This document shows, one piece after another, positions 46,080-62,822 of a DNA stretch of 64,000 nucleotides. Origin of the DNA: Ensifer adhaerens (GTDB taxonomy: Bacteria > Pseudomonadota > Alphaproteobacteria > Rhizobiales > Rhizobiaceae); assembly GCF_020035535.1 (NCBI RefSeq), contig NZ_CP083350.1:124001-188000 (forward strand), read 5' to 3'. How positions within the stretch are numbered: position 1 is the stretch's first letter; every line of letters begins with the position of its first letter. The position numbers were made by a program, and so were the translations under genes. The notes beneath the pieces are model-generated. The model searched no databases. It saw only the letters and a list, made by a program, of their open reading frames with translations, and was not told where the DNA came from.

Positions 46080-46703
46080 TCAGCAGCCAATTGAGCGCGC
46101 CCATCCGGCAGCGCGTCGCGCCGCCTCGGTCAGCATGGGTTTGGGGGCCTTGTACCACTCGTTCTCAGGAAGCCTGCGCTTGTCGCGAACATGGTCGATT
46201 GCGGCGTCCAGGGTTAGGAACTCTTGCGGCAGCGTGAGATGGAGAAACAACGACACGACAGCAACGGAGCGAGAGCGTCCGCCGCGGCAATTGATCAGCA
46301 CTCCCCCGCGCTCCCGTCTGGGGTAGGACGGCTTCTCCGGCAGGACCTGCTCGAGCGCGGCCCGCAAGATGTAGTGCGCCGCAAGCATCTGCGTGTCCGG
46401 GTTTCCATCGCCGTCGATCAGCCCCACCTTGTAGTAGCGGATCTCGCCTGGGCCATGGACACTGTTTCGGTGATCCGAGACGAGCTGCGGCTCTCGGACG
46501 AAATTGAAATCCAGATTGACCGCGCAATTGACGACGGTCGTGATGCCGTTGCGACGCAGGAGATCGAGATCACTCGCGCCTTCCTTGCCCGAGATGAAGA
46601 TGTCGGCGTCATAGGTCGGATGCCTGGCATAGATGAGGCTGAGCCTTGGCAGCTCGCTGCTCGCCTTGTTGGCGGCCATCGTTTCGGTTGGTTCAATTTG
46701 CAT
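46080..46703 (-). CDS. Dual-specificity/tyrosine phosphatase-like protein 1
   Basis: 207 residues. The CX5R phosphatase loop is NCRGGRSRS, with Asn in place of the usual preceding His, and YYKVGLIDGDGNPD forms a possible general-acid region. It begins SLIYARHPTYDADIFISGKEGASDLDLLRRNGITTVVNC, the typical DSP start in which an index-like loop precedes the catalytic loop. The ATG at 46703 has GAGGAAA before it. It is 17 bp after the IMPase-like gene and ends the ABC operon. A frameshifted paralogue is at 61314-61932, again next to an IMPase-like gene. Confidence 0.82.
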   Translation of the reverse strand: MQIEPTETMAANKASSELPRLSLIYARHPTYDADIFISGKEGASDLDLLRRNGITTVVNCAVNLDFNFVREPQLVSDHRNSVHGPGEIRYYKVGLIDGDGNPDTQMLAAHYILRAALEQVLPEKPSYPRRERGGVLINCRGGRSRSVAVVSLFLHLTLPQEFLTLDAAIDHVRDKRRLPENEWYKAPKPMLTEAARRAAGWARSIGC

Positions 46704-46720
46704 GCTTTCCTCGTCTCCGC

Positions 46721-47614
46721 TCATGGCGCTGGAGCTTTGGCCGTACGGCCATCTGAAATGGCCTGCGCGACGCGGTTCAGGGTCGGATAATCGGCACCGG
46801 CGCCATAAGCCACATAACCGGGGCACAGATAATCGGCAGAACCGACCGGCACTTTGCCGAGCGGTAGGGGGCGGTAGCGCCCGCCGGCATTTCTGAGGAT
46901 CAACGTCGCAGCGGCGACATCCCACGCATTGACGCCGAAGCCGGCCGCCGCGTCGACAAAGCCGGCCGCCACATGCGCGATGCTGAGGGCTGCGCTGCCG
47001 GGCCGGCGCAATGTCGAGAAGGTCTCGACCAGGTCGCCAAAGCGACGAAGGGCGACATCCTGTCCATCGAGGCGAAAGTCTCTCGAAACGGGATAGCCTG
47101 TGATCAGGGTCGCGCGGCTCTCGTCGCTCACTGCCTTGGAAGTGATGACGTCTCCATTCAGATAGGAGCGCTCGAGGTCACCCGAGAAAAGTAGGTCGGC
47201 GACCGGGTCGTAGACGACCCCTGCCACGACCACCCCCTCTTCGACTGCGGCGATCGACACGCACCAGAAGGCGAGCCCCCGAGCGAAATTCGCCGTTCCA
47301 TCGATCGGGTCGACATACCACTGGATTTCGCCTGTGCCGACCTGACCGCCCTCTTCGCCGAGCATGGCCGAGTTCGGCTCGTTCGCGAAAATGTGGTCCC
47401 GGATCAGTGCCTCGGCGTTTTTGTCGTGAATCGTCACGATGTCGTGCAGGTCGCGCTTGTAGTCGACCGCCATTTCCGAGCGAAATGCCGCAAGGAGTGG
47501 TGCCCCCACGGCCCGGGCCGCGCCCTCGGCTATCTGCATCAGGTGGCGTGATCGGGCAAGTTTGCCCGCTTCATCGGCGCGACTGGGGCTTGCCGCCGGA
47601 TAAGCGTTGTTCAT
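46721..47614 (-). CDS. Inositol monophosphatase-family phosphatase 1
   Basis: 297 residues of the IMPase/SuhB/CysQ superfamily with the metal sites GEEGG, DPIDGTANFARG and WDVAAATLILRNAGG. It removes phosphate from inositol phosphate, a sugar phosphate or a similar ester using Mg2+. It follows the three binding-protein genes in the same direction, with a hairpin between, and precedes the phosphatase at 46080. A paralogue is at 61983-62822. Confidence 0.9.
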   Translation of the reverse strand: MNNAYPAASPSRADEAGKLARSRHLMQIAEGAARAVGAPLLAAFRSEMAVDYKRDLHDIVTIHDKNAEALIRDHIFANEPNSAMLGEEGGQVGTGEIQWYVDPIDGTANFARGLAFWCVSIAAVEEGVVVAGVVYDPVADLLFSGDLERSYLNGDVITSKAVSDESRATLITGYPVSRDFRLDGQDVALRRFGDLVETFSTLRRPGSAALSIAHVAAGFVDAAAGFGVNAWDVAAATLILRNAGGRYRPLPLGKVPVGSADYLCPGYVAYGAGADYPTLNRVAQAISDGRTAKAPAP

Positions 47615-47639
47615 GCTTTCTTTCCGTTCATGCGGGTGC

Positions 47640-47676
47640 GGCCGGCGCGACCTGTCCTCGTCATGTCGCGCCGGCC
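47640..47676 (-). repeat. Intra-operon stem-loop before the IMPase-like gene
   Basis: A 12-bp stem GGCCGGCGCGAC / GTCGCGCCGGCC with a 13-nt loop, 8 bp after the binding-protein stop and without a T-run. Confidence 0.6.
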
Positions 47677-47684
47677 TCGAGTTT

Positions 47685-48812
47685 CTATTTGCTGTAGTTC
47701 ACACGCCAGAAGTCCTGCCATTCCTCGCGCCGGTCGAAGTCTTCAAGACCCGTTGCGGCATCGTAGGGGAACAGGCGGTCCGCCACTTCCATAATCCCCG
47801 ACGGTTCGTCCGCCGGCATCTTGATGTCGGTGTTGGTCGGCAGCTTGCCGTCCTTCATCTGCGGCGCAATGCCCTCTTCCGTCAGAACGTAGTGAATGAA
47901 GAGCTTCGCGGCATTCGGGCTTGCGCTCTTCGACGCAACGAGGCCCAGCTTGGTGTAGGTCCAGCCGACCCAGGGCTGAAGCTCCGTGCACAGTCCAAGC
48001 TTGTAGCCCTTGCCCTCGTTGTCGCGGAACTTGGCCGAGCTCAAAAGGCCGAAGAACGGCTCCTTCTGGCCGGCCGCACCGACAGCCTCGGCGACCGGAT
48101 CGTCACCGTCGGTAACCAGCGGCCCGTTTAGTGCGAGCGCCTTGATCCAGGCTGCGGCCGCACTCTTCTCTCCGGTTTCGATATCCTTGCCGAAGTGGCT
48201 CTTGTAGGCGTCGGCCACCGCCTTGTCGGCGTGCTTCTCCATCTGGTTGAACCAGTCGGTATAGGTGCTCTTGGTCAGGGGATCGACGAGAGCGATCTTG
48301 CCTTTCCACTTCGCCTCCGTCAGCTCCCAGATGTTGCTCACCGGGCATTTGTCGTAGGCCTCGGTGTTGTAGGCCCAGACATTGGCATTGGTCGAAATCG
48401 CCAGAGGGTTCTGGAAGGCTGCCGGTATCTTGTCCTTCATGTCCCCAGGCAGATAGCTCTCGACGAAGCCTTGCGGCAGAAGCTGGGCGAGCGCTGCCGG
48501 CGCATCGGTAATCAACGCCACATCACCCTGGACATTGCCGGCCTGCGCCTCCCGGATGATCATTTCCAGCTGGCTGTTGGCCGAGACTTTCACGCCCGTT
48601 GCCTTGACCCCGTATTTCGCGGTGAAGGCTTCGGCCATCTCGACGATCTTGCCGGTGCTGTCATAGACGTTGATAGGCTTTTCCTTCTTGGCGGCCTCGA
48701 TCAAGGCGTCGAGATCGAACGCCTCTTCGGCACGCGCTTCAACCGCGACAGCGGTCGCAAGGGCAGCCAACGCCGCCCCCATTGCCAGTAATTTGCTGTT
48801 GCCTCTTTTCAT
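47685..48812 (-). CDS. Afu/Fbp-type periplasmic binding protein, paralogue 1
   Basis: 375 residues. It has a Sec leader ending VEARA near residue 28, then FDLDALIEAAKKEKPINVYDSTGKIVEMAEAF, the SBP_bac_6/ferric-binding fold. The strong GGAGGGG site supports the start at 48812. The three consecutive paralogues share segments such as CPVSNIW, DWFNQM, PNAAKLF and EGIAPQ. The class includes iron binders and, in AfuA, sugar-phosphate binders. The adjoining phosphatases favour the latter; no Tyr-rich iron site is evident, but this is inference. Confidence 0.9.
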   Translation of the reverse strand: MKRGNSKLLAMGAALAALATAVAVEARAEEAFDLDALIEAAKKEKPINVYDSTGKIVEMAEAFTAKYGVKATGVKVSANSQLEMIIREAQAGNVQGDVALITDAPAALAQLLPQGFVESYLPGDMKDKIPAAFQNPLAISTNANVWAYNTEAYDKCPVSNIWELTEAKWKGKIALVDPLTKSTYTDWFNQMEKHADKAVADAYKSHFGKDIETGEKSAAAAWIKALALNGPLVTDGDDPVAEAVGAAGQKEPFFGLLSSAKFRDNEGKGYKLGLCTELQPWVGWTYTKLGLVASKSASPNAAKLFIHYVLTEEGIAPQMKDGKLPTNTDIKMPADEPSGIMEVADRLFPYDAATGLEDFDRREEWQDFWRVNYSK

Positions 48813-48852
48813 GGTTTCCCCTCCCAAGGAGACCGTTTCAGGGTTCACGAGG

Positions 48853-49995
48853 TTACTTCCGGTAGTTGATCCGCCAGAGGTCCTGCCAGGTTTCCCGCTT
48901 GTCGAGATCATCGCCGGCCGTCGCAGCATCGAAGACCATCAGTTCGTCGAGGTGCTTGGAAACGCCGGAGGCTTCGTCAGCCGGCAAGGCGATCGTCCTG
49001 TTGCCGGAGATCTTTCCGTCGACGGTCTGCGGCGCGATCCCCTCGGCCGTCATCAGATACCGAACGAAAAGCTTTGCAGCGTTCGGGCTCTTCGTCTGAG
49101 CGGCAATCAGGCCGAAGCCGGGATAGAGGAAGCCTGTGAACGGCTCCATGCCGGCGCAAATGCCGAGTTTCAGCCCCTTGGTGGCATTTTCCCGGTACTT
49201 TGCGGTCGAGGTGATCGCAAAGAACGGCTCGGCCTGGCCGGGCGCGCCGGCGGCCTCGGCGACAGTCGACGAATCCGAAAGCAGCGGGCCGTTTGCGGCA
49301 AATGCCTTGACCCAGGCGGCCGTGGCACTCTCACCTTGTGTATCGAGTGCCTTGCCGTACTGCGCCTCATAGGCCCGCGCGACGTCCTTGTCGCGATGAT
49401 TGGCGATCTGATTGAACCAATCCGCATAGAGCGGTTTGTCGAACAGATCGAGCATCGCGACCTTCCCCTTCCACTCCGGCTCCGTCAGTTGCCAGATGTT
49501 GGTGACGGGGCACTTCTCGTACTTCTCCGTATTGTAGGTCCACACATGCGGATCGGAGACGACCACCAAGGGATTGCGCAGCGGTTCGGGAATGTCGCCC
49601 GCAAGATCGGGCGGCGTCCAACTGGTGGCAATGCCTTCAGGAAGCATCTGCCCGACTGCGGAAGCGACATCCATGGCTAGGCTGACATCGCCGACGACGT
49701 TGCCTGCCTGATGCTCGCGGATCATGAGTTCGACCTGCGTCGCCTCATTCACCTTCTTGCCGTTTGCCTGGAGCCCGTATTTTTCGCTGAAGGCCTGGAC
49801 GGTGTCGACAATCTTGCCGGTCACCGCATAGACCGTGATCGGCGGCTCTTTCTTCGCCGCCTCGATCGTCGCATCAAGGTCGAAGCGCTGCTCGCCATGG
49901 GCTACGGAAGCCAACGAAACAGAGGCGGCGATAGCCCAGGCGGAGACGGACGCGACCGTCCAAAGCCGACGCGTCCTCATGATCTGATTGCTCAT
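48853..49995 (-). CDS. Afu/Fbp-type periplasmic binding protein, paralogue 2
   Basis: 380 residues. The leader ends near ASVAHG, then FDLDATIEAAKKEPPITVYAVTGKIVDTVQAF. It is the most diverged of the three: VYAVTGK instead of VYDSTGK, and NRTIALPADEASGVSKHLDEL near the C-terminus. Its start at 49995 has GAGGGTAA upstream. A different ligand preference from copies 1 and 3 is plausible. Confidence 0.9.
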   Translation of the reverse strand: MSNQIMRTRRLWTVASVSAWAIAASVSLASVAHGEQRFDLDATIEAAKKEPPITVYAVTGKIVDTVQAFSEKYGLQANGKKVNEATQVELMIREHQAGNVVGDVSLAMDVASAVGQMLPEGIATSWTPPDLAGDIPEPLRNPLVVVSDPHVWTYNTEKYEKCPVTNIWQLTEPEWKGKVAMLDLFDKPLYADWFNQIANHRDKDVARAYEAQYGKALDTQGESATAAWVKAFAANGPLLSDSSTVAEAAGAPGQAEPFFAITSTAKYRENATKGLKLGICAGMEPFTGFLYPGFGLIAAQTKSPNAAKLFVRYLMTAEGIAPQTVDGKISGNRTIALPADEASGVSKHLDELMVFDAATAGDDLDKRETWQDLWRINYRK

Positions 49996-50017
49996 AAAGT
50001 TACCCTCAGAGTTCGCT

Positions 50018-51154
50018 TCACTTCTGGTAGCTGAGCCGCCAGAGGTCCTGCCAGGTCTCACGCGCGTCCCAATCGTCGAGGCTCGTTGCCATCTGATAGG
50101 GCATGACCTGATCGATAACTGCGCCGATGCCTGACGGCTCGTCGGCAGGCAGCGAAACATCCTGGTTCGTCGACATCTTCCCGTCCTCGGCCTGCGGCGC
50201 GATGCCTTCGGCCGTCATCACATAATGGATGAAGAGCTTCGAGGCGTTGGGGCTGTTGGTACCCTTGGTGATCAGCCCGACACCCGGATACATCCAGCCG
50301 AGCCACGGTTTCAGGTCCTTGCAAAGGCCGAGCTTCATACCCTTGTCGGCATTGTCACGGAACTTCGCCGAGCTCATCAGGCCCATGAACGGCTGCGATT
50401 GCCCCGGTGCGCCGACCGCGTCGGCGGCTGCCGCATCGGCATCGGTCAGGAGCGGCGCGTTGGCGGCAAGCGCCTTCACCCAGGCGGCCGTCGCGCTGCC
50501 GTCGTCGGTTTCGAGCTCCTTGCCATAAAGCTCCTTGTAAGCCGCAGCCACCTTGTCGTCGCCGTGCTTGGCCATCTGGTTGAACCAGTCGACATAGGAC
50601 GCCTTGCCGAGCGGGTCCTGCATCGCGACCTTGCCCTTCCATTCTGGTCCCGTCAGTTGCCAGATGTTGCTGACCGGGCACTTGTCGAAGAGTTCGGTAT
50701 TATAGGCCCAGACGTTGGCACTGGTGACCACTGTCAGCGGATCCTGGTACTCCGCGGGAATCTTGGATGCGAGATCCGGCGGCAGCCAGCTTTCGGCAAA
50801 GCCCTGCGGAATGAGCTGGGCCATCGCGGCCGGCGCATCGCTGATGATCGACACGTCGCCCTGGATATTGTTCGCCCGGGCCTCGCGAATGATCATCTCG
50901 AGCTGGGCGGTCGCCTTGACCTTCGACCCTTCGGCGGCCACGCCATACTTCTCCGCGAAGGCCTTGGCCATTTCGACGATCTTGCCGGTGCTGTCATAGA
51001 CCGTGATCGGCGCTTCTTTCCGTGCCGCCTCAATGAGGGCGTTCAGGTCGAAGGGCTCCTCCGCCAGCGCCGGCCCGCTGATCGCCACGATCGTCGTCGC
51101 CAGCAAGGCGCGCCGAAATGCACGTTGCATCCTGTCAGTTTTCCGAAATTGCAT
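50018..51154 (-). CDS. Afu/Fbp-type periplasmic binding protein, paralogue 3
   Basis: 378 residues. The leader ends SGPALA near residue 31, then FDLNALIEAARKEAPITVYDSTGKIVEMAKAF, closest to copy 1. GGAGGAA lies before the ATG. It is the first binding protein of the operon, 46 bp after the ATPase gene and 22 bp before copy 2. Copies 1 and 3 are probably the most recent duplication. Confidence 0.9.
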   Translation of the reverse strand: MQFRKTDRMQRAFRRALLATTIVAISGPALAEEPFDLNALIEAARKEAPITVYDSTGKIVEMAKAFAEKYGVAAEGSKVKATAQLEMIIREARANNIQGDVSIISDAPAAMAQLIPQGFAESWLPPDLASKIPAEYQDPLTVVTSANVWAYNTELFDKCPVSNIWQLTGPEWKGKVAMQDPLGKASYVDWFNQMAKHGDDKVAAAYKELYGKELETDDGSATAAWVKALAANAPLLTDADAAAADAVGAPGQSQPFMGLMSSAKFRDNADKGMKLGLCKDLKPWLGWMYPGVGLITKGTNSPNASKLFIHYVMTAEGIAPQAEDGKMSTNQDVSLPADEPSGIGAVIDQVMPYQMATSLDDWDARETWQDLWRLSYQK

Positions 51155-51200: not shown

Positions 51201-52334
51201 CTAGTTCAGTGTGCTCTTGCGCAGCAACGCATCGGCTTCGCTGACGCGTTGACCGTTCATGTCGAAGACGTGCAGCGCCTCGGGCGGCGCGAAATAGGAA
51301 ACCCTCGCACCGGTCTCGACGCGCGGCAGGGCATTCGTGGTCAGGAAAAGCGTATCGTTGTCGTTCCTGAGCTCGAGGATCCAGCTGCCGCCGGTCGGCA
51401 GAACGCCCGTCACCGTCATTTCACCGGTGAAGCTGCCCGCAGGCACATCCTTTGGCTCCATTGCATACCCGATCGCCTCGGGCCGGATGCCGACCGAGCC
51501 TATGCCGCGCAGCGACGGATAGCGCTCGCCAAGATAGGCTTCGGCCGCACGCGACATCTCCGAGTCTGCAGGCGAGCCGAAGGTAAGGATGTTGATCGGC
51601 GGGCTGCCGACGAATTCCGCAACGAAGCGATTGGCGGGACGATCGTAAATATCGTTCGGCGTGCCCATCTGCTGCAGGGTGCCCTCGTTCATGACGGCAA
51701 TGGTCGTCGCCAGAGTCATCGCTTCCCACTGGTCATGGGTGACGAAGACGATCGTCGTCTTGAACTCCTTGTGGATGCGCTTGAGCTCGGCCCGCATTTC
51801 GAGCCGCAGCCGCGCGTCGAGGTTCGAAAGCGGCTCGTCGAGCAACAGAACTCCCGGATTGACCGCAAGCATGCGGGCAAGCGCCACACGCTGCTGCTGG
51901 CCGCCGGAGAGCTGCGAGGGGTAGCGGTCGCGATACTTGGCGATGTCGAGCGCCTGCATGACCTTCTCCACCCGCTGCTCGCGCTCTTCCTTCGGCAGTT
52001 TGCGCAGACGCAGGCCGAAATCGGTGTTGCGCTCGATCGTCAGGTGCGGCCAGAGCGCGTAGCTCTGGAAGACGAGGCCCATCTCACGCTTTTCCGGCGG
52101 AATGAACACCCCTGCCCGGACCGAGTCGACCACCCTTTCGCCGATGCGGATTTCGCCATCGGAGAGGTTTTCGAGACCGGCGATCATGCGCAGCGTCGTG
52201 GTCTTGCCGCAGCCGGAGGGTCCGAGAAGGCACATGAACTCACCATCGCGGATTTCGAGATCGAGGTTCGAAACGGCATTGGCGGAATTGACGCCATAGT
52301 TCTTCTGCGCGCCGCTGAGATTGATGGTGGGCAT
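51201..52334 (-). CDS. Afu/Fbp-type ABC transporter ATP-binding protein
   Basis: 377 residues. It has Walker A GPSGCGKTT at about residues 38-46, signature LSGGQQQR, Walker B VLLLDEPLSNLD and a C-terminal TOBE domain. Its ATG overlaps the permease stop (TGATG). It energises the large fused permease for the three binding proteins encoded downstream. Confidence 0.93.
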   Translation of the reverse strand: MPTINLSGAQKNYGVNSANAVSNLDLEIRDGEFMCLLGPSGCGKTTTLRMIAGLENLSDGEIRIGERVVDSVRAGVFIPPEKREMGLVFQSYALWPHLTIERNTDFGLRLRKLPKEEREQRVEKVMQALDIAKYRDRYPSQLSGGQQQRVALARMLAVNPGVLLLDEPLSNLDARLRLEMRAELKRIHKEFKTTIVFVTHDQWEAMTLATTIAVMNEGTLQQMGTPNDIYDRPANRFVAEFVGSPPINILTFGSPADSEMSRAAEAYLGERYPSLRGIGSVGIRPEAIGYAMEPKDVPAGSFTGEMTVTGVLPTGGSWILELRNDNDTLFLTTNALPRVETGARVSYFAPPEALHVFDMNGQRVSEADALLRKSTLN

Positions 52335-54184
52335 CAGCTTCCGAGTCCTTCTGCGAGATTGGTCTTGGTCAGCTTCTGGGCTGCCAGTGTTCCGAGATAG
52401 GCGATGGCGGCGATGATCAGCACGACCGCATTTGCCGCCTGGGTGTAGTGGTAGTCGACGAGCCGCAGGGAGTAGGTCGTCAGGACGTCGGTGCTCGGCA
52501 CGGCGAGGATGACGAACAGGCTCAATCCCTTGATGCCCGAGATGAACGGCAACAGCACACCGGTGACCAGCGACCCTTTCTGGATCGGGATCACGATCAG
52601 CATCATGCGGCGGAACCAGCCGGCGCCGGCGATCTGGGCCGCCTCTTCCGGATCTTTGCCGAGCTGTGTCATGGCGGAGATGCCGGCGCGCGAGGCATAG
52701 GGCATCTGGTCGGCAATCAGCGCCAGGATGAGGATGGTGACCGTACCGTAGAGGGCGGGCATCGGTCCGCGTGGCACCGCAAAGAGCGACAGATACGCTG
52801 CAGCAAAAGCGATCCCGGGCACCAGATACGGCAGGAAGGTAACCTGCCTCAGGTAGACCGACAGCGCCTTTACCGGCGTGCGGATCACGACATAGCCGAC
52901 GAGCAATCCGAGGATACCCGAGGTCAGCGATGCAAGGCCGACGATCATCAGCGTGTTCTTCGCGGCCGCCCACAGATCCGGGCTCAGCAACACACCTGTT
53001 TGCAGCGCCACGGTATGGAGATCGCGGCCAATCCAGTAATCCAGCGTGAAGTTGTCGAGCGTGAACTGTGCCGGCAGCTTCATGATCGTCGACAGGAACA
53101 GGGTCAGAAGCGGCAGCCCGACGCTTAGCAGGAAGATGAGCGCTGCGAAGCCGGTCGCCGGCAGGCGATACTTGCCGAGCCGGCTTTGGCGGTTCATCGA
53201 ACCCTTGGAGCCGACGGTGACGAAGCGGCGCGCTTCACGAACAAGCCGGGCATCGATCATCAGGGTGATGATGCCGATCAGCATGATCGAGGCTGCGACG
53301 ACACCGGCGACGCCCGTCTGGCGGGATGCGATGCTGCGGAAGAGTGACGTGGAGAGCACCTCGAACTTGACGGGCAGCCCAAGCACATAGGGCACGCCGA
53401 ACTCACCGAGGCACTTTGCGAAAATCAGCACCATCGAGGACAGCAATGCCGGGCGCATCAGCGGCAGGATGATCTGCATCGCCACCTGGTAGCGCTTCGC
53501 GCCAAGAATGCGGGCAGAGTCTTCAAGCTGGGAATCAAAGCGGCGAAGGGCCGAGCCGAACAGCAGGATGACGAAGGGCGTGTAGTGCAGCGCCAGGATG
53601 ACGACGATCGGAAAGCGCCCATAGGCAACCCAGTCCGGAGGCGTCAGGCCCATCGCCTCGAACCAGCCCGGCTGGCCGCCGACCGTCCGGTTCTTGAAGA
53701 GCGTGGTCCAGGCGAGCGCGAACGTCCAGGCCGGCAGCATGTATGGTACGATGAGTGCGGTTGCGAACCAACGCCGCCCGAACATGTCGGTCCGGCTGAT
53801 CAACCATGCGAGCACCGTTCCGATCACCAGCGACAGGCTGATAGCTCCGACGGCGACAGATAAAGTGTTAAGAAGCGGCCGCCAGAACAGGTCGACAGAA
53901 ACAGGCGAAAGGAACGCCCGGTCGAGATAGTAGAGCGTCAGGTCGCCGAAATCCTTGCCGAGCCGCCGCTCGTGCCCGAACTGGACGCGGACGGAATCGA
54001 GCACGATCGAAATGATCGGCACGACGATCAGATAGGTGAACAGCAGCGCCGTCAGAATGCCGACCAATGTTGTCGGCTCGCGGGAAGCGACCTTCGCTCG
54101 ATACCGCCAGCGCTGCCATGCTGTCGGCGCCGTCGCGTCGTCTGGCACTGTCGACGCCTTGGCTGTTTCACTCAATAAGGCCAT
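52334..54184 (-). CDS. Fused two-domain ABC transporter permease (AfuB/FbpB type)
   Basis: 616 residues with two BPD_transp_1 domains of about six membrane segments each. The first EAA-like loop is LEDSARILGAKRYQVAMQIILPLMRPAL, the second EEAAQIAGAGWFRRMMLIVIPIQKGSL. One polypeptide thus forms the whole channel. The start at 54184 has AAGGGGA at 6 nt; the longer upstream frame is not coding. It is the first gene of the operon and is divergent from the LacI gene. Confidence 0.92.
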   Translation of the reverse strand: MALLSETAKASTVPDDATAPTAWQRWRYRAKVASREPTTLVGILTALLFTYLIVVPIISIVLDSVRVQFGHERRLGKDFGDLTLYYLDRAFLSPVSVDLFWRPLLNTLSVAVGAISLSLVIGTVLAWLISRTDMFGRRWFATALIVPYMLPAWTFALAWTTLFKNRTVGGQPGWFEAMGLTPPDWVAYGRFPIVVILALHYTPFVILLFGSALRRFDSQLEDSARILGAKRYQVAMQIILPLMRPALLSSMVLIFAKCLGEFGVPYVLGLPVKFEVLSTSLFRSIASRQTGVAGVVAASIMLIGIITLMIDARLVREARRFVTVGSKGSMNRQSRLGKYRLPATGFAALIFLLSVGLPLLTLFLSTIMKLPAQFTLDNFTLDYWIGRDLHTVALQTGVLLSPDLWAAAKNTLMIVGLASLTSGILGLLVGYVVIRTPVKALSVYLRQVTFLPYLVPGIAFAAAYLSLFAVPRGPMPALYGTVTILILALIADQMPYASRAGISAMTQLGKDPEEAAQIAGAGWFRRMMLIVIPIQKGSLVTGVLLPFISGIKGLSLFVILAVPSTDVLTTYSLRLVDYHYTQAANAVVLIIAAIAYLGTLAAQKLTKTNLAEGLGS

Positions 54185-54764
54185 GCTCTTCCCCTTGGAA
54201 CTCGACATGCGCAACCTGCTGCGGCGATCGAAGCCGGGCCGCGCTCCAGTAGTGCTGATGGGGAAATAGATGCCGGGCCGCACTTGATGCCGCCGCATTG
54301 AAAGCCGCGAACGACGCGAGCCGTCCCGCCTTCCTGGCTGCTCTCCTCCCCACTCGCGGACAGGCCGGATGCCCTGCCAAAACGACGACGCCAACTCCTC
54401 AAAGGCGCAACCATTATCGCGAACACAAACGGAACAAATATTCCAGCATTTCTCCGTCAGTGGAATGTATGATCCAATGACAGGGGCGCCTTGTCAATTA
54501 AAAAATTGCACACGTGCGCATTGATGTAGTTCGTTGTTTTTATTGATATTTTTATGGAGAATGTATATTATTTTTCGAACACGTGAGCAATCGGCATCAG
54601 AAGGCGCTTTCTGGCACCACGATTGGCGGTCGTTTTGCCGGTGAGGGAAACGTGCGGGCGGAGGCTGCGGAGCACCGACTGTGGCCGCTGGTCCGCACTT
54701 TTTCGTTGGAATGGGGCAGGTTTTATGGCCCTGATGGGAACGTTCTGATTCAGTGGGGGAATGC
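54185..54764. promoter_or_regulatory. Divergent control region of the Afu-type operon and LacI gene, with two ACACGTG sites
   Basis: 580 bp without a convincing gene, AT-rich around 54480-54600. TGCACACGTGCGCA (54507-54520) is symmetric except for one base pair. A second copy, ACACGTGAGCA, occurs at 54579-54589, so the shared ACACGTG cores are 69 bp apart. A CG-centred palindrome is the usual form of LacI-family operators. Related palindromes stand before the IMPase operon at 62836-62867. Confidence 0.55.
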
Positions 54765-55763: not shown

Positions 55764-56235
55764 TCAGGAAGCCGCCTGCCGGATACGACTCTCGATCAAC
55801 AGTCCGCTCTGATCGAGGATCGGGTGGGCAACAGAAGCGATATGCGCATTGATGCGCTTCAGATCACGCAGCATGTCGAGATGAAGCGAACTGGTCTCGA
55901 TGCTGTCGGCGCGTCCGTCACGCAACCGCTGCAGATGTTGTTCGGCCGATTGCCGCTCCAGCCGGCGGACGTCCTCTTTCGCCTCGACAAGGCGCCGCGC
56001 CATGGTGTTGTCGCGCGTGGCAAACACCGCCTGCGCCATGCGCAGATTGTCGATCGTGATCGCGAAAAGCCGCGGGAGTTCTTCGTGGCCATCGCGGGAA
56101 AAGGTCAGGCCCCGGGTGATCTTCTTTGCAAGTTCGGCCAGCAGACCCTTTTCGATGATGTCTCCGATGTGTTCGAGGTTAATGGCACAGTCGGCGATAT
56201 CGGTCGCTCGATGCAAAAGACCGCCTGCTGTCAGG
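55764..56235 (-). pseudogene. C-terminal PhoU-like fragment of a Na/Pi cotransporter (NptA type)
   Basis: About 155 codons starting near LHRATDIADCAINLEHIGDIIEKGLLAELAKKI, with no ATG or ribosome site. The frame runs on upstream without homology until a TAG at 56298. The helical PhoU-like segment is the tail domain of NptA/YjbB-type phosphate carriers, whose membrane part lies at 58310-59302 on the same strand. Roughly 70-80 residues of the usual linker are missing. I read this as the downstream remnant of one gene split by the Fic island. Confidence 0.75.
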
Positions 56236-56301
56236 AATGAGCCTCTACAAAGCCATTCAGAAACGATGGGTGGGGGTCGTCGGGTTGGAAACCTCGTCTA
56301 C

Positions 56302-56631
56302 CTAGCGCTTAGGCGTTCGCCCTTCAAATCGTCGATTGTATTTGGTTACAAGCTCTGGCGCTGCTTCGTAGACACGTAGTTTCAGCTCGCTTTTTTGATT
56401 TTCGGTCAACGTTCCGGGGCTATAGGTAGAGAGGTCTTCGATAACCGCCGTTCGCGAATATCCGTATTCCCCCATGGCTTCAGCGATAACGCGGTCCTCG
56501 ACGGCACGCCAATCAACTTCCATGCCATCGGATGTCGCCAGTTCTTCGGTGGCGATCCTTCCAAGAAGGTATCTTGTCTCCGTCGACTGAAGGAGCATGG
56601 GAACGTAATCAATCCGCCTCCACCTCAACAT
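56302..56631 (-). CDS. Hypothetical protein downstream of Fic
   Basis: Up to 109 residues, acidic in the middle (LATSDGMEVDWRAVEDRVIAEAMGEYGYS) and basic at the end (RRFEGRTPKR). It has no recognised domain; the residues around VIAEAMGEYGYSRTAVIEDL could form helices. The start is unclear: ATG 56631 overlaps the fic 3' end by 23 bp, ATG 56598 follows it by 10 bp, and neither has a good ribosome site. The position suggests co-transfer with fic. A regulatory partner is possible but not shown. Confidence 0.5.
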   Translation of the reverse strand: MLRWRRIDYVPMLLQSTETRYLLGRIATEELATSDGMEVDWRAVEDRVIAEAMGEYGYSRTAVIEDLSTYSPGTLTENQKSELKLRVYEAAPELVTKYNRRFEGRTPKR

Positions 56632-57814
56632 CCGCGAAGAGATTTGGGAAAAGTCGGTCTCGGTAGTCTAGCGGAAAAGCGATGCGCACAGGTGTTTTGG
56701 GCGAAGCAGACTTCAAGAACCCAACATCAAGCAACTCTTTGAGGGTATTGCGCGCAGTGCGTTCCGAGGTCCTCGTGACCAGGCTGATGTCGCCACGATC
56801 CATTGTTCCGTGCTTCAGGACAGCGGAAATCACATCAGAAGCCCTCTTGTCGTCTATCAGAGCCCCAACCAGCTTCCGATAACGTCCTTCAAGTGTGTCA
56901 AAGGCGAAAACGGCGTTCGAGAACTTGATTTGGTCGAGCGCGACCGAAAGAAACCATTCGCAATAGTCCTGAAGCGCTTTCGTCGACAGGTTGCCACGGC
57001 CGTCTCTGTCGCTCATCCTTTGCTGGTCGGCGTGGTCCATCATGCTCTTGTATTCGGTTTTGTCTTTCAGGCCCCGGGCAAGTCCGCGAGAGATTGACCA
57101 CAGGCCCTTTCCGCCTACCCCTGCGTTTTGGGCCATCGCGTGAGACATCAACCTGCTGACACGACCATTTCCGTCCGTGAAAGGATGGATGAAGTTCAGG
57201 CGGTGGTGAGCAGCTGCAATCGCGATAATCCTATTCGTGGCTCCAGTCTCTGCCGCCCTATAGCGCTTAGCAAAGTGCTCCATGAATGCGATGACGTACT
57301 GAGATGAAGGTGGCTGGTGTCGCCCAACTGCCACGTCATCCACGCTTTTAGAACGGAATACGCCTGGTACAATCTCGGCCTTCGTCCCGTCAGGCCGCTC
57401 GACGAAACGGAACTCCGCTGGCATCTCTTCGTAGAAACGGCGATGGACCCAGGAAATGAACTCTGCTGATGTAGGTGGCGGCAACGCACCGCGATGGTTC
57501 AGGCGATCAATTTCTCTTTGAACGATGACGTGAGCTTTGGCTTCTAACGCCAATGGCCTTGTCGCCTCTTCAAGCTCAGCACCAGCCAGTGCACGCTCGA
57601 TGTCCTTGGGCCGCGTGTTGTGCCCCTCGATCAAGTTCGAGTAATAGCAATTTATCACGCGGACGAGGTCTGACAATTCGAAGGCAGCGTCGTTGTGCAA
57701 GCCCCGCCCCAAGTCAGACGCCGCCGCATGAATCTCGACAACGAGATCAGAAAGGACGGACGGGATGATATCTTCGAAAAAAGCGGGTTCAATGCGGGTC
57801 GGGACTTCTTCCAT
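56609..57814 (-). CDS. Fic-family AMP-transferase with N-terminal inhibitory motif and C-terminal winged helix
   Basis: 401 residues. The Fic_N region contains the inhibitory helix motif SNLIEG (S/TxxxEG), which marks self-inhibited class II Fic proteins. The catalytic HPFTDGNGRVSRLM motif is intact at about residues 215-228, with His and both Gly-Asn-Gly-Arg elements. The C-terminal ~60 residues (DRGDISLVTRTSERTARNTLKELLDVGFLKSAS) form a winged helix, so DNA binding and autoregulation are likely. It transfers AMP from ATP to a target hydroxyl. It lies on an AT-richer island inside a phosphate-transporter gene. Confidence 0.9.
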   Translation of the reverse strand: MEEVPTRIEPAFFEDIIPSVLSDLVVEIHAAASDLGRGLHNDAAFELSDLVRVINCYYSNLIEGHNTRPKDIERALAGAELEEATRPLALEAKAHVIVQREIDRLNHRGALPPPTSAEFISWVHRRFYEEMPAEFRFVERPDGTKAEIVPGVFRSKSVDDVAVGRHQPPSSQYVIAFMEHFAKRYRAAETGATNRIIAIAAAHHRLNFIHPFTDGNGRVSRLMSHAMAQNAGVGGKGLWSISRGLARGLKDKTEYKSMMDHADQQRMSDRDGRGNLSTKALQDYCEWFLSVALDQIKFSNAVFAFDTLEGRYRKLVGALIDDKRASDVISAVLKHGTMDRGDISLVTRTSERTARNTLKELLDVGFLKSASPKTPVRIAFPLDYRDRLFPNLFADVEVEAD

Positions 57815-58201
57815 CTTTTGCCGATCTTGCGTTTCTTGAAAACTGATAATAATTAGTATCTTAGCGTGAACAAATCAAGAAACTTGCCGATGTTGGTTGC
57901 CGATCTTTCATGGAAATCAAACAAGTTCTAAATTGCCGATATCATTATCGTATATTTTGTATTTAAATCAATTTGATACGGCCAATACGTTCACATTTTT
58001 GCCGATGTTGGTTGCCGATCGTCGGCGTCCGAAAATTGATGCGAGCATTCTCGTTGGGTAGAGCTTCAACATTCCAGTCGTGCGGCTCAGACGTGCCCCT
58101 CTCCAACCGCCACGGCGCGAAGAAGTGAGCTCCGGCGACAGCAGCGATGTAACTAGTGAAATCAGAGACGTTTTGATGAATCCTTCTGCCTGCCTCCCAA
58201 A
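57815..58201. repeat. AT-rich fic promoter region with six TTGCCGAT repeats
   Basis: 387 bp without a gene. TTGCCGAT occurs at 57818, 57884, 57897, 57933, 57999 and 58012. The pairs 57884-57905 and 57999-58020 are identical 22-bp units, each holding two copies 13 bp apart. The first copy overlaps the ribosome-binding region of fic. This looks like an operator array, probably for the winged helix of Fic itself. Confidence 0.7.
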
Positions 58202-59302
58202 TCAGGCATGGCCGGTTCGCATCAAGGAAAGCATGGTTGCGCTTCCGCTTGGTCGTGAATTTGATTCCGGATTAAAAGAAGTTCTTCCGCTCGAATGGGA
58301 AGCGCGAAACATGTCGCCGACGCCGAGGACCTCCCGGCTGGCTCCGGCAAGGGCCGCAACCGGCGTCTGCAGATCGCCCTGCTCCAGAAACGACGGGCCA
58401 TCCTCGGCTTTCGCCGCGTCCGGCAGCAGCCGCGCCGTCAGACGAGAAAGCAGCCGGGCGAAGGGAGCAGCCAAGGCCGCCAGCACGAGATTGAAGCCAA
58501 GATGCGCGTCGACCGGCAGCTTGTCATGCGACAGCGGCAATAGTTTGAGCAAATGGCCGGAGTAGCCATCCAACGGCAGTGCCAGGAGGCAACCAACTGC
58601 CCGGACGATCAGATTTCCAAGCGCGACACGTCGGGCGCTGGGCGCCGCATGGAGCGTTGCAAGAACCGGCGGCACGGCCCCACCGAGATTTGCGCCAAGA
58701 ACGAGCACGATAAGCAGCCCGGTCGAAAGCTGGCCGGATGCGGCAAGGACGGCAAGGGCTGCGGAGATGACCAACGCAACCGGCCAGGCATTGTCGAGGA
58801 GCGCGAGGAAGGCAGAAAGCGCCACAGACGTTCGAAGCGGTTCGGTGGCAGCGCCGATCAGGTGCAACGACAGCAACATCAGCCCAACACCGACGAGCGC
58901 GGCACCTGCCCCCTTGCGGGCATTCGAGCTTCCGCGCCCGACGACGACACCGCAAAGCAGCAAAAGCGGCGAAAGCCATCCCAGGCCCAATGCGACGATC
59001 CAGGCGGTCATCGCCGGTCCGACATTGGCGCCAAGCAGTACCACTTGCGCCATGCGCGGCAGGATGAGGTCACGCTCGACGAATGACGCCACCATCAGGG
59101 CAGTCGCGGTCGAACTCTGCAGCGCAACGGTCGCGACGAGGCCGGAGAAGAAGGAGCGAAAGCCGTCGCGCGTTCCGGCCGCAAGGCCAGCCTTCAGCCG
59201 AGCGCCGAAGGCGCGCTGCATGCCCTCGCGCACCTGGCCGAGACCGAAGAGGAGAAGGGCCACAGCGCCGAAGAGATTGATGCTGACGTTCGCCGAATCC
59301 AC
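58202..59302 (-). pseudogene. N-terminal membrane part of a Na/Pi cotransporter (NptA type), truncated
   Basis: The GTG start at 59302 with GGGGAGGGAG upstream is followed by about 330 residues of true family sequence: VNLFGAVALLLFGLGQVREGM, the QSSTATALMV motif of Na/Pi carriers, GANVGPAMTAW and GANLGGAVPPV. Homology runs to REVLGVGDMF near 58310. Beyond that the frame reads unrelated residues to a stop at 58202. The PhoU-like tail is at 55764-56235, past the Fic island. Most of the channel remains, so residual transport cannot be excluded. Na/Pi carriers of this class can export phosphate. Confidence 0.82.
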
Positions 59303-59324
59303 GGCTCCCTCCCCTTGAGCAGCC

Positions 59325-59618
59325 TTACTGCCGGCCCCGCAGCAATTCCGCCCGGAACAACTGCTGAAAGGCAGCGTAGCTTTCGAAGCCAAGATCGTTG
59401 ACGAGGCGCATCACCGTCGTCGTCGAGACGCCGCTGCGCTCGGCCACCTCGCGCGCGCTCGCGAAGGCAACGTCATAGGGATGGCCAAGGACGAACTTCG
59501 CCACCTCCAGCCGCCCGCCCTTCAACCGCCGTACACCGAGGCGACAGGACTCCCGCAGTTCGACAAAAGTCGCCGGAGGTGCGATCGAGGCGGTAGTGAC
59601 GGACAGTTGATGGACCAT
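59325..59618 (-). CDS. RpiR-type HTH-only protein
   Basis: 97 residues equal to the N-terminal HTH_6 domain of RpiR regulators (REVAERSGVSTTTVMRLVNDLGFESYAAFQQLFRAEL), ending in RGRQ. The sugar-phosphate-binding SIS domain of RpiR proteins (normally ~280 residues in total) is absent. No SIS remnant follows, since the transporter starts 23 bp later. It starts 2 bp after the metallophosphoesterase stop, so it belongs to the same operon. Confidence 0.8.
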   Translation of the reverse strand: MVHQLSVTTASIAPPATFVELRESCRLGVRRLKGGRLEVAKFVLGHPYDVAFASAREVAERSGVSTTTVMRLVNDLGFESYAAFQQLFRAELLRGRQ

Positions 59619-59620
59619 GT

Positions 59621-61321
59621 TTAGGCCGCCTCCACGTTGGAGGGCGTGCTCTCGATGTGGACACGAAGACTGCCGGTTTCGGCACGATCAAGAAAGGCGT
59701 CGAACGCACCGAAGAAGATCGAGAGGAAAGTGTCAGTCGAGCCGTCCCAACCACCTTCCGCAGCACTACCGAACCGTGCAGCGAGCGCTCGATAGAGCCT
59801 GAGGTGTGGCGCGGAGATCTTGTCGAGCGCGAGCACGGAGGCCTGGCGCAGACAATACCAATCGGTGATCAGCTCAAGCATTTCCAGGCGAACCAAGTCA
59901 GTGGCGTCCTCGGGCGGGCATGCCGCGATCACACTCTCGATCGCGCCCGGCCCGCCGAGGCGTTTGCAGACATCCTCGACAGTGAGCCCGGAGATCGCTT
60001 CGACGGCTTCCTTCGGCCACTCCTTGGGAAAGTAGCGATGCTGAACCAGGGCGCGTTTATGCGCTTTCAGGAACGATCCGTAGTCGGAGACGTCAAAGGC
60101 GCTATCAGCCTCTTCCGTGAGATGGGCCATTTCGCGCCGATAGCCACAGGAGATGCGCGGATCGACGGCGCTGGAGGACAGCTCGACGGTTTCGACCAGC
60201 AGGCCAGGGGCGGATGGCTCGACGATCTTGAAGGCTGGCGGAAAGGCCACCAGGGACGGCACGGCGATATTGGTGAGCACACCGTCGCCGGATCCTCGGT
60301 GCGTGACGCCCTCGACATGCAGATGCCCGCTGAAGTGCAGCGTCATCCCTGCGTCGATCAGAGCCTGCGCGACTTCCTTGCGCGGCGTCCTGCGAGCAAT
60401 GTTCGTCTCACCGAAAAGCACGCCTTCGGCACCCGTTGCCCCATCAAAGGGATCGAGAACCGGATAGTGCGAGAAGGCAAGAAGCGTCTTTCCGAGCCTG
60501 CGGGCGCGTGCCGAGACGTCGGCGATCCAATCGATGATGAACGGCTTCAGCTTCAAGAGCGCATTCCAGCCGGCCCCGGTACTATCGACGAAAGCCGCCT
60601 CATCGCCTTCTGGGAACATGCCGTCGCGCGGCTCGAACACGTTGGCGTCGATCATCATCAGCCAGAGACCGGGCTCCGGCTCGACCAGATAGGTAGCGTC
60701 CATCAGCGCGTAGCGGTTTCGGCCATCTGGGGACGAAACGTCGTAGAGACGGTCTTCGACCTTGTCCGAGGCGCCGAACGGGGTCTCCCAATGGATATCG
60801 TCGGACCTTCGGAAGTATCCGAATGCGGCCATCGGCGCGAGGCCCGTCGGATACCCCTCGCAATACATGGACGGCGTCGCGTAAGTGCCGGGGCAGGCCA
60901 TTTCCTCATCGCTGGTGACGAGGACCCTCGCATCATTCACATCGAGAAACTGCTTGGTGTGATGGCGGCCCCTGGGGCCGAAAATGTCGTGGTTGCCGGG
61001 GAGTGCGTAGAAGCGCGTATCATTCTCGCGTTCATGCCGCTCCAGAATGGTGCGCAGGCGCTCTGCGGTTTGCCGCTGGCCGTCATCCGTATAGTCGCCC
61101 AGCAAGACGACGTGACGGATTCCGCGCCGGGCAACCTCCGACAATGCCTCGTCCAGCGCCCTCGCACTCTCGTTGAATACGCGGGTCGACTCGCGCGTAT
61201 CGGCCCAGCTTCTGATGGCCAACGCCTTCCCATCGACCTCGATGGCTGGAAACGCGAAGTCGGTCTCAAGATCATGAAAGTGGGCGTCAGCGATCACGGC
61301 GATCCGCGGCAAGTCAGCCAT
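59621..61321 (-). CDS. Calcineurin-like metallophosphoesterase
   Basis: 566 residues. The N-terminal ~330 residues carry the dimetal motifs in order: DAHFHD, LLGDYTDDG, LPGNHD, FSHYPV and SGHLHVEG. A C-terminal ~230-residue helical domain is unassigned. There is no signal peptide, so it acts in the cytoplasm. The start at 61321 is 9 nt after GGAGG and overlaps the preceding phosphatase gene by 8 bp. It likely cleaves a phosphodiester or monoester related to the substrates of the IMPase/DSP pair in the same operon. Confidence 0.88.
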   Translation of the reverse strand: MADLPRIAVIADAHFHDLETDFAFPAIEVDGKALAIRSWADTRESTRVFNESARALDEALSEVARRGIRHVVLLGDYTDDGQRQTAERLRTILERHERENDTRFYALPGNHDIFGPRGRHHTKQFLDVNDARVLVTSDEEMACPGTYATPSMYCEGYPTGLAPMAAFGYFRRSDDIHWETPFGASDKVEDRLYDVSSPDGRNRYALMDATYLVEPEPGLWLMMIDANVFEPRDGMFPEGDEAAFVDSTGAGWNALLKLKPFIIDWIADVSARARRLGKTLLAFSHYPVLDPFDGATGAEGVLFGETNIARRTPRKEVAQALIDAGMTLHFSGHLHVEGVTHRGSGDGVLTNIAVPSLVAFPPAFKIVEPSAPGLLVETVELSSSAVDPRISCGYRREMAHLTEEADSAFDVSDYGSFLKAHKRALVQHRYFPKEWPKEAVEAISGLTVEDVCKRLGGPGAIESVIAACPPEDATDLVRLEMLELITDWYCLRQASVLALDKISAPHLRLYRALAARFGSAAEGGWDGSTDTFLSIFFGAFDAFLDRAETGSLRVHIESTPSNVEAA

Positions 61322-61932
61322 TGGCATTCGCCTCCGCGCGGGACGCTTCAACGAGATCGATCCAGGTGGAGGCGCGCCGCGCCGCCTCGTACAGCATCGG
61401 CTTCGGTGTTTCGAACCATTCGTCCGGCCGCAGCTCGCGATGCTCGCGGATATGGGCGACCGCGGCGTCTAGGGTCGGAAACAGGTGCGGCTGTTGCTTG
61501 TGCAGGAAAAGCGCCACCAGCGACACGGAGCGACTGCGCCCGCCGCGGCAGTTCACCAGAATGTTGCCGCCGTCGACGAAGGGGTAGGTCGGGCGTTTAG
61601 GCATCGTTTGACGCAGGGCTCCGTCGAGAATGTAGTAGGCACCAAGCATCATCGTGTCCGGGCTGCCGTCGCCATCGATCATGCCGAGCTTGTAGTAGCG
61701 TATGTCGGCGTAGCCACTTGCGCAGAGGTCGTCATTGACCGCGACCCTCCTCACGCACGAGATTGATATCGAGGTTGACCGCACAGTTGACGACGATGGT
61801 GATCCCGTGACGCTTGAGCAGTTCCATGTCGCGCGCGCCGTCGCTGCCGCCGATATAGAGATCCGCTCTACGGGGGCCAAGTTCCGTGGCGATCAGGCTG
61901 ATTGCGGGTCGCGCGTAAACCGGTGCGTCCAT
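61314..61932 (-). pseudogene. Dual-specificity phosphatase-like gene 2, frameshifted
   Basis: A paralogue of 46080-46703. The first ~62 codons from ATG 61932 (AGAAGGAAA site) read MDAPVYARPAISLIATELG...HGITIVVNCAVNLDINLVREE, then hit TGA. The rest (NDDLCASGYADIRYYKLGMIDGDG onward, including the CX5R loop NCRGGRSRS) is in the next frame. Removing one G from the GGG at 61745-61747 (CCC on the plus strand) joins the two halves in line with the intact paralogue. It is a real mutation, a sequencing error or a frameshift site; the sequence alone cannot decide. Confidence 0.85.
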
Positions 61933-61982
61933 TGTAGTTTCCTTCTGTTGTCGTCGAACGAGGCGCTCCGCCGATCGTTGGT

Positions 61983-62822
61983 TCACGCCGGCTGAAGCGC
62001 AGCGGTCCGTTCGTGGGCAAGGATCGGAATGCCGGAGGCTTCGCTGACACCGTCGGCGATGGCCGGCGTCGATGCAAGCACCGGTCCTCCGTCCCGCAGA
62101 CTGCCGATCTCCAGGAACGGGCACACGACGCCGCCGGCCTCGGCAACGAGCAGGAGCCCGGCGAGGCAGTCCCAGGAATTCATGTGCAGCTCCACATAGG
62201 CATCGGAGCGCCCATCAGCGACATAGGCAAGCGCCAGTGCTCCGGACGCCCCGCGCCGGACATTGGCGCCCTTGGCGAGCATCAACCGCATGGTTTGTAG
62301 ATAGGTCTCGTCCGGCACCCGGCGTGACCAGCCCATTTCGACGGAGGCTGCATCGAAGGTGACCGTCGACGAGATGCTTATGGGCTTGCCGTTCAAAGTC
62401 GCCCCAGCGCCTCGTCGACAAAAGTAGAGCTCGTCCTGGGCCGGATTGTAGATCGCGCCGATCTCTGCACTGCCCCCTTCGACATAGGTGATCGAAATGC
62501 AGAAATGCGGAATTCCGCGCGCGAAATTGGCGGTGCCGTCCACCGGGTCGACGACCCACACGCGGTCGCCGATCGAGCCGCCGCCCTCCTCGCCCAGAAA
62601 CGCATCTCCAGGAAAGTGCGTGGTGATAGCCTGACGGATATGGGCCTCGGATGCGGCATCGGTTTCCGTGAGGAAATCCTGTGGCCCCTTCAGCGAGAAG
62701 CCGCGCTCGGAACTCTCCTTGAAGCCGCTCAGCACCAATGCGCCGGCAGAGCGAATGACGTCCCGACATAACGACGCCCGTCCTGCGAGGTCATTCGAAT
62801 AGCGCGGATTGTGATCGTTCAT
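61983..62822 (-). CDS. Inositol monophosphatase-family phosphatase 2
   Basis: 279 residues with intact IMPase sites: TETDAASE, GEEGGGS, DPVDGTANFARG and a C-terminal WDCLAGLLLVAEAGG. It is related to 46721-47614. The start at 62822 follows GGAG at 8 nt. It is first in the operon IMPase-DSP-metallophosphoesterase-RpiR-NptA and sits just after a perfect inverted repeat. Confidence 0.9.
   Translation of the reverse strand: MNDHNPRYSNDLAGRASLCRDVIRSAGALVLSGFKESSERGFSLKGPQDFLTETDAASEAHIRQAITTHFPGDAFLGEEGGGSIGDRVWVVDPVDGTANFARGIPHFCISITYVEGGSAEIGAIYNPAQDELYFCRRGAGATLNGKPISISSTVTFDAASVEMGWSRRVPDETYLQTMRLMLAKGANVRRGASGALALAYVADGRSDAYVELHMNSWDCLAGLLLVAEAGGVVCPFLEIGSLRDGGPVLASTPAIADGVSEASGIPILAHERTAALQPA

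Follow-up and report, generated by a model that had tools for sequence, protein, structure and literature searches.

A LacI-controlled gene cluster of Ensifer adhaerens proposed to use inositol phosphates as a carbon source

We analysed a 64,000-nucleotide stretch of the Ensifer adhaerens genome (the window; positions 124,001 to 188,000 of NZ_CP083350.1), which lies on contig C2 (3.2 Mb) of a genome of 8.1 Mb in three contigs. Two operons in this window, with a regulatory gene between them, quite probably form a LacI-controlled system that uses inositol phosphates as a carbon source. Operon 1 (minus strand, 54394 to 46080) encodes in order a fused ABC permease (PERM), an ABC ATPase (ATP), three substrate-binding proteins (SBP1, SBP2 and SBP3), an IMPase-family phosphatase (IMP1), and a CX5R phosphatase (DSP1). 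Operon 2, also on the minus strand, from 62822 to 55764, encodes a second IMPase-family enzyme (IMP2), a second CX5R phosphatase (DSP2), a metallophosphoesterase (MPE), an RpiR-type helix-turn-helix (HTH) protein, and a carrier for sodium and inorganic phosphate (Pi), here called the Na/Pi carrier or NptA. A first-pass annotation of this DNA had read operon 1 as an Afu/Fbp-type importer with three binding proteins, an IMPase and a CX5R phosphatase, and had placed a LacI gene between the operons. Pfam matches and motifs confirm the first statement, and the LacI-family gene, with LacI and Peripla_BP_3 domains, is found on the plus strand at 54753-55754, divergent from PERM. All five genes that the same annotation assigned to operon 2 are present as well, although the carrier gene is split and DSP2 is frameshifted. 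Uptake and intracellular dephosphorylation of an organophosphate, as suggested there, appear well supported by comparison with related genomes. Of the three ligand classes it had offered (sugar phosphate, inositol phosphate or phosphodiester), inositol phosphates are favoured because phytases of two superfamilies and inositol (iol) genes are neighbours of related clusters.

Conservation of the gene set

A DSP profile run against the GTDB species genomes matched the pattern 121 times, and 77 loci were confirmed. Almost all of these belong to Alphaproteobacteria (Rhizobiaceae, Phyllobacteriaceae, Devosiaceae and Rhodobacterales). Failure of the two operons to co-occur had been named beforehand as an outcome that would refute the functional prediction, and it was not observed: by identity thresholds that we chose ourselves, 71 of the 77 loci combine the CX5R phosphatase gene with those for the fused permease, the ATPase, a binding protein, LacI and an IMPase. 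LacI is present in 75 loci, MPE in at least 45 and the carrier in at least 50, the last two counts being lower bounds because the flanks end at 10 kb. PERM is 84-97% identical where found among loci L009-L044. Six loci are incomplete (L025, L067, L070, L077, L079 and L082); in L070, L079 and L082 a more divergent transporter (permease 36-40% identical) accompanies the same IMPase, DSP, MPE and carrier set. Judged by these identities, the enzyme set is combined with two transporter types. In many loci of Devosia, Aminobacter, Shinella and Paracoccus the genes are arranged continuously as PERM-ATP-SBPs-IMP1-IMP2-DSP-MPE, followed by LacI and sometimes by NptA. In addition, a HAD-family hydrolase gene adjoins the IMPase genes, at approximately 7.3-8.2 kb, in 13 loci (L048, L050, L054, L055, L056, L058, L059, L063, L069, L072, L083, L084 and L085), and its product is possibly a further phosphatase. 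The phosphatases and the transporter stay together across Alpha- and Gammaproteobacteria, and the IMPase and DSP are fused into one protein in Klebsiella and Erwinia.

The cluster is also present in Sinorhizobium meliloti 1021, a laboratory strain whose genes are readily deleted. Judging by gene numbers, SMb20155-8 is presumably the ABC operon of the cluster in S. meliloti. Excerpts of one study describe SMb20155-8 as a strongly upregulated ABC operon in this species (PMC4414408). Among titles and the beginnings of abstracts in the open PMC literature we found no paper on this gene set, although supplementary regulon tables may hold this LacI. Genes for a PdxA-like protein, a four-carbon acid sugar kinase, an iron alcohol dehydrogenase and FadR lie beside the S. 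meliloti cluster (L090, 2870-6876).

Phytase and inositol genes beside related clusters

Four Klebsiella plasmids, the fourth found by tblastn, carry genes for a KdgM-family porin and a histidine-type phosphatase followed by PERM-ATP-SBP, the IMPase-DSP fusion, and LacI. Because the copies are near-identical, we count these plasmids as one or two events. The best PDB match of the Klebsiella phosphatase is the 3-phytase 2wnh (E 8e-82), which we take to be PhyK, with E. coli AppA at approximately 1e-41 and glucose-1-phosphatase at approximately 1e-38; E. coli genomes held no close match to the Klebsiella stretch. A porin gene and a histidine-type phosphatase gene are likewise found in Vibrio sp. 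HDW18, where they are divergent from PERM-ATP-SBP-IMP-DSP-LacI. The Vibrio phosphatase resembles MINPP, its best PDB matches being 6rxd (histidine acid phosphatase, E 5e-70) and 7zgf (multiple inositol-polyphosphate phosphatase, E 9e-66). Moreover, a gene for a beta-propeller phytase is divergent from PERM in two Devosia loci (L046 and L047), with the palindrome described below between the two genes. In Devosia limi, a beta-propeller phytase gene on a different contig has the palindrome 15 bp outside its open reading frame (ORF), the start of which is provisional.

Genes of inositol catabolism were identified with the inositol 2-dehydrogenase model TIGR04380 (equivalog cut-off 355 bits) and with an inositol kinase/aldolase model (cut-off 600 bits). 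Locus L046 has an inositol 2-dehydrogenase gene (432.6 bits) on the same strand as NptA, its ORF opening directly after the NptA stop and the match beginning approximately 80 bp further on. In L079 such a gene (432.9 bits) is divergent from IMP2, with one palindrome between them, and is adjoined by an inositol kinase/aldolase gene (691.6 bits). At greater distances from MPE, L080 holds an inositol 2-dehydrogenase gene (416 bits, approximately 5 kb) and L081 an inositol kinase/aldolase gene (723.7 bits, approximately 4 kb). The genome of L047 has iolG on the contig of its phytase, approximately 6 kb away, and iolG of E. adhaerens itself sits on another replicon.

Residues of the binding proteins

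SBP1-3 are distant relatives of the sugar-phosphate-binding protein AfuA (hhalign probability 97.9). By hhalign and by a second alignment, the positions of AfuA residues H205, D206 and E229 are occupied by A263, K264 and W/F284 in SBP1-3, and across the binding proteins they align with A, K and mostly W, F or I. Excerpts of the AfuA study give these three residues as essential for sugar binding (PMC4546632). Five basic residues of SBP1 (K58, K78, K184, K264 and R266) are shared by 34 of 35 binding proteins, and also by the four that we examined in Klebsiella, Vibrio, Erwinia and Thioclava. At these positions, two AfuA sequences show E/V, R, S, D and V, so that they share a basic residue only at position 78. 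The five residues would fit a polyanionic ligand if they line the cleft. Tandem tyrosines, which are presumably the Fe3+ ligands in the ferric importer FbpABC, occur in 5 of the 35 proteins near residue 213, ahead of the aligned cleft segment.

These comparisons bear on the idea that the cluster serves broad uptake and stripping of sugar phosphates (hexose, pentose, or sugar bisphosphate), with inositol phosphate as at most one of the ligands, which we consider unlikely. The distant kinship to AfuA speaks for this idea, as do the three binding proteins, which suggest several ligands. In addition, an AfuA homologue is encoded near the cluster in 16 of the 77 loci, and would suit hexose phosphates equally well; the hexose-phosphate MHD motif is found in 9 of the 11 such homologues aligned (it is absent in L033 and L035), and one of the near-cluster homologues matches the AfuA structure 4r72 at E 6.6e-95. 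Afu-like importers are also paired with IMPases at three other places in the E. adhaerens genome (L097, C2 2422000-2436000; L098, 284000-296000; L099, 370000-382000), their binding proteins being 60%, 34% and 28% identical to the 4r72-matching homologue. Given these three further pairs, an importer with a cytoplasmic IMPase may be a general module. Nevertheless, the replacement of all three sugar-binding residues argues against sugar phosphates as the ligands of SBP1-3, and neighbouring phytases of two superfamilies and iol genes would be unexpected for a hexose-phosphate system.

The genes of L097 are arranged as AfuA-AfuA-AfuB-ATPase-IMPase, and each of its two binding proteins carries the MHD motif. 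Another Afu-like binding protein is encoded in L100 (C2 392000-405000), with a Na/Pi carrier gene approximately 4-5 kb away.

A shared palindrome and control by LacI

A LacI-type palindrome, TGCRCNNNNGYGCA, which was derived from the palindromes upstream of LacI in the loci, stands ahead of each operon in the window and of the corresponding genes in relatives. One copy lies between LacI and PERM (54507..54520, TGCACACGTGCGCA) and two lie before IMP2 (62836..62849, TGCACACGCGTGCA; 62854..62867, TGCACGCGTGTGCA). The 77 loci contain 106 matches, 93 of which fall in a zone that reaches 450 bp upstream from PERM, LacI, IMP2 or NptA and comprises 5.5% of bases; the reversed pattern used as a control has 6 matches, one of them in the zone. 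Across the whole E. adhaerens genome there are 61 palindrome sites versus 39 for the reversed pattern. The palindrome also stands before PERM in loci outside its derivation (L101, L102 and L103-L109). Because the same palindrome precedes both operons here and the same genes in relatives, a single LacI regulon spanning both operons is likely.

This regulation also bears on whether the organophosphate is a source of phosphorus instead of carbon, an explanation that we regard as still less likely than sugar-phosphate uptake. Phytases are often phosphate-starvation genes, and every enzyme of the set would free Pi. No Pho-box-like site, however, was found in the 46-63 kb region around the operons (three occur in the whole window with up to 3 mismatches, against 3.2 expected), where the LacI-type palindrome is found instead. 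Control of the operons by PhoB was rejected on this ground. Furthermore, the cluster holds a Na/Pi carrier, and YjbB, a carrier of that kind, is described as a Pi exporter in excerpts of PMC11389368; an inositol dehydrogenase gene adjoins the cluster in L046. Use of the organophosphate as carbon is favoured because Pho-box-like sites are lacking near the operons and the repressor is of a sugar type.

Observations that weigh against the proposal

Several observations weigh against inositol phosphates as the substrate, or against the cluster as a unit. Phytases were sought in 43 genomes, namely that of E. adhaerens and 42 of the genomes of the 77 loci, which we picked for spread. A PF02333 phytase is encoded in four of these and a PF00328 phytase in one, where it lies outside the fetched locus, so that either family occurs in only 5 of 43 genomes and is beside the cluster in only 2 of those. 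The E. adhaerens genome has no phytase of PF00328 or PF02333, the PTP-like and purple acid families not having been searched. No phytase is encoded within 12 kb of the cluster in Erwinia sp. E602, and the phytase of Peteryoungia (L117) is on a different contig with no palindrome nearby. The PhyK-like and MINPP-like enzymes are presumably two branches of one superfamily, and therefore the independent phytase evidence amounts to two superfamilies in four lineages. The iolG gene is present in 41 of the 43 genomes versus 4 of 14 named controls, a comparison that has no order-wide background rate.

A background sample was provided by a draw of 150 genomes from the order, including that of E. adhaerens. 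Five of these have a DSP match, and the three strong ones (E. adhaerens, G056 and G080) all have a binding-protein gene within 3 kb. The two weak DSP matches (G116 and G149) are without a binding-protein match at 1e-60. Seven of the ten genomes with a binding-protein match at this threshold are without a DSP match, including a strong one (G084, 3.6e-121). MPE is found in E. adhaerens and G056, and the copy in G080 is minimal, only PERM-ATP-SBP, LacI and DSP being found in 18 kb. On the results of this draw, the system is patchy and accessory, with relatives of its binding proteins occurring outside it as well.

As for the palindrome, the pattern was derived from the same loci in which it was counted, and 31 of the 77 loci lack an exact copy before PERM, LacI, IMP2, NptA or DSP; 27 of these 31 belong to L010-L044, for which the retrieved sequence mostly stops short of IMP2. 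By number alone, the three copies in the window do not reach significance (1.11 are expected, and three occur in 10 of 100 shuffles), and it is their positions that carry the weight.

It is scarcely credible, finally, that the transporter imports ferric iron or 2-aminoethylphosphonate beside unrelated phosphatases: public records do name the permease 'iron ABC transporter permease', and PhnU2 is its best NCBIfam match, but PhnU2 (140 versus 593 bits) and PhnT2 (326 versus 457.7 bits) are both under their curated cut-offs, the former far under, the ATPase is under the cut-off of the ferric ATPase model (among the 25 of 187 families listed), and phosphatases and transporter are kept together in two bacterial classes.

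Genes of operon 1

PERM (52334..54394, minus strand, as are all genes of both operons) is a fused two-domain permease with two stretches matching Pfam BPD_transp_1 and a provisional start; the ATPase (51201..52334; Pfam ABC_tran) is taken to start at MPTINLSGAQ in its translation. The three binding proteins match SBP_bac_11 and are 50-65% identical in pairs. SBP1 (50018..51154) has a profile match to AfuA and, by eye, a putative signal peptide, and starts are inferred at MSNQIMRT for SBP2 (48853..49995) and at MKRGNSKL for SBP3 (47685..48812). IMP1 (46721..47614; PF00459 E 4.5e-48) contains the motifs DPIDGT and WDVAAA. Both IMP1 (164.5 bits) and IMP2 (188.9 bits) score far above the PF00459 cut-off of 27 and have the DP[IV]DGT motif, the WDxA motif being found in IMP1 only. 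DSP1 (46080..46703; inferred start MQIEPTE) matches Pfam DSPc at E 3.2e-6, and this match, like that of DSP2, is below the cut-off. DSP1 is putatively of the dual-specificity type; the DSP profile matches VHR (E 4e-8), and in the CX5R loop, NCRGGRSRS, all but one position is invariant among 21 aligned sequences. DSP1 is 86% identical to its S. chiapasense counterpart, and its nearest named relatives are from Sinorhizobium/Ensifer. Beside operon 1, the plus strand (42719-45554) encodes a family 5 (peptide-type) binding protein and a DAO-type oxidoreductase.

Operon 2 and its broken genes

IMP2 (61983..62822; PF00459 E 1.6e-55) is taken to start at MNDHNP because the operators fall inside the longer ORF. 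DSP2 (61314..61932; inferred start MDAPVYA) has matches in two frames, spread over ORFs at 61732-62124 and 61314-61880. MPE (59621..61321; PF00149 E 3.8e-10; inferred start MADLPRI) has metal-site motifs that are invariant or nearly so across 24 aligned sequences. The RpiR-type protein (59325..59618), with 97 residues, consists of the HTH only and has no SIS domain; it matches HTH_6 at E 2.9e-6, its 27.6 bits being slightly under the Pfam cut-off of 28.3, and its relatives are annotated MurR/RpiR. The notion that this gene was a misread Fic HTH was rejected once the ORF at 59325-59618 had been found.

The carrier gene is divided into a membrane part (58202..59392; Na_Pi_cotrans, PF02690, E 1.8e-31) and a PhoU part (55764..56216; PF01895, E 1.6e-12). 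The uninterrupted protein with both domains that characterizes the YjbB/NptA type is thus missing from the window. Between the two parts lies an insert (56212..58309, boundaries defined by BLAST ends only) containing a Fic-family gene (56609-57814; PF02661): the alignment to S. chiapasense ends at 56211 and restarts at 58310, with approximately 2.1 kb in the window versus approximately 165 bp of carrier gene there. Third-position GC is 0.62 in the Fic-family gene versus 0.70-0.75 in LacI, MPE and the two parts of the carrier gene. Within the insert, the Fic-family gene is preceded by a direct repeat of 22 nt (57884-57905 and 57999-58020) and followed by a short second ORF (56302-56631). The carrier, with its membrane and PhoU parts, and DSP2 are each a single ORF in four relatives (L089-L092), namely S. 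chiapasense, Ensifer sp. PDNC004 and two S. meliloti strains. Venting of Pi, which the first-pass annotation had proposed, fits these relatives but is impossible through the present copy as assembled, because the gene is split; four further genes of the Na/Pi family are found elsewhere in the genome. MPE is spread over two frames in S. meliloti Ak57 (L090, 8566-10426), whereas strain 1021 (L089) has it in one ORF.

The two IMPase/CX5R pairs had been called paralogous, which proves to be a loose term. Identity between IMP1 and IMP2 is 33%, and the tree places DSP2 with Roseibium (94/91) and then Alloyangia (96/88) instead of with DSP1, the program having warned of long branches elsewhere in that tree. 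Because IMP1 and IMP2 share so little identity and DSP2 groups apart from DSP1, the operon 2 set looks like a lineage separate from that of operon 1. Identity to the Roseibium counterparts is 61% for the carrier and 48% for MPE; from these values and the position of DSP2 we suggest that a single LacI may have gained control of two versions of the system. An Lrp-type gene (62907-63383) lies beyond operon 2.

A proposed pathway and its significance

Phytate and lower inositol phosphates make up a large share of the organic phosphorus in soil and seeds. To our knowledge, bacterial handling of phytate has so far been extracellular or periplasmic, and we know of no described importer dedicated to lower inositol phosphates. 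We tentatively extend the proposal to a cytoplasmic phytate pathway, in which multiply phosphorylated inositols might be imported, several phosphates stripped in the cytoplasm, the inositol burned as carbon and Pi released outside. With the same reserve, this pathway might belong to soil Alphaproteobacteria and, by plasmid, to some Gammaproteobacteria, and might employ as many as three binding proteins and, in some cases, a HAD enzyme. In the main proposal, phytate would lose part of its phosphate outside the cytoplasm; some relatives have a phytase of their own for this step, and the present strain would probably depend on other organisms. SBP1-3 would then catch lower inositol phosphates in the periplasm for import by the ABC transporter. 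The CX5R phosphatase, the IMPases and MPE, for which no signal peptides were seen by eye, would remove the phosphates in the cytoplasm, in an order that we infer, and the freed myo-inositol would enter the iol pathway. Surplus Pi would leave through the Na/Pi carrier where its gene is intact, and another carrier would be needed in this strain. LacI would repress both operons from TGCRC-N4-GYGCA palindromes and would be released by a signal derived from inositol. If the proposal is true, genes labelled 'iron ABC transporter' and 'protein phosphatase' would constitute a testable phytate route in root-associated bacteria, one that turns phytate into carbon for these bacteria themselves and into free phosphate for others.

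Comparison with known systems

The closest parallel is AfuABC, the hexose/heptose-phosphate importer of Actinobacillus and Citrobacter, which is likewise an ABC importer once called ferric, has a binding protein of the same superfamily and takes a phosphorylated ring as ligand. Here too the binding protein, the fused permease and the ATPase are encoded in one operon, so that the likeness to AfuABC first noted holds for operon layout. It does not extend to the three sugar-determining residues: SBP1-3 are without H205, D206 and E229, and additional Lys/Arg residues are conserved in them. In addition, phosphatases and LacI belong to the present cluster, and its ligand is probably an inositol phosphate. 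By the published residue test, the cluster is not a member of AfuABC, though it would work in a similar manner.

The pyridoxal-5-phosphate importer protein P5PA is another relative of AfuA for a phosphorylated ring, as described in excerpts of PMC8427247. It serves vitamin uptake, however, and is 54% identical to AfuA according to the same excerpts (PMC8427247), whereas a search with the SBP1 profile gave a weak match to AfuA (E 5e-9) and none to P5PA at a threshold of 0.01. The agrocinopine (Acc) system of the related Agrobacterium also combines ABC uptake of an organophosphate with intracellular hydrolysis, as far as excerpts of two papers describe it (PMC4526662, PMC7356202). Its substrate, however, is a phosphodiester opine and its enzyme the phosphodiesterase AccF. 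UgpBAECQ resembles the present system in pairing ABC import of an organophosphate with cytoplasmic hydrolysis, but it scavenges phosphorus under PhoB and is not known to include LacI, IMPase or CX5R phosphatase. Excerpts of PMC11389368 describe it as a PhoB-dependent operon for glycerol-3-phosphate metabolism. Relatives of PhyK, MINPP and beta-propeller phytase adjoin clusters related to that of E. adhaerens. These three kinds of phytase act outside the cytoplasm, and the present cluster would handle their products.

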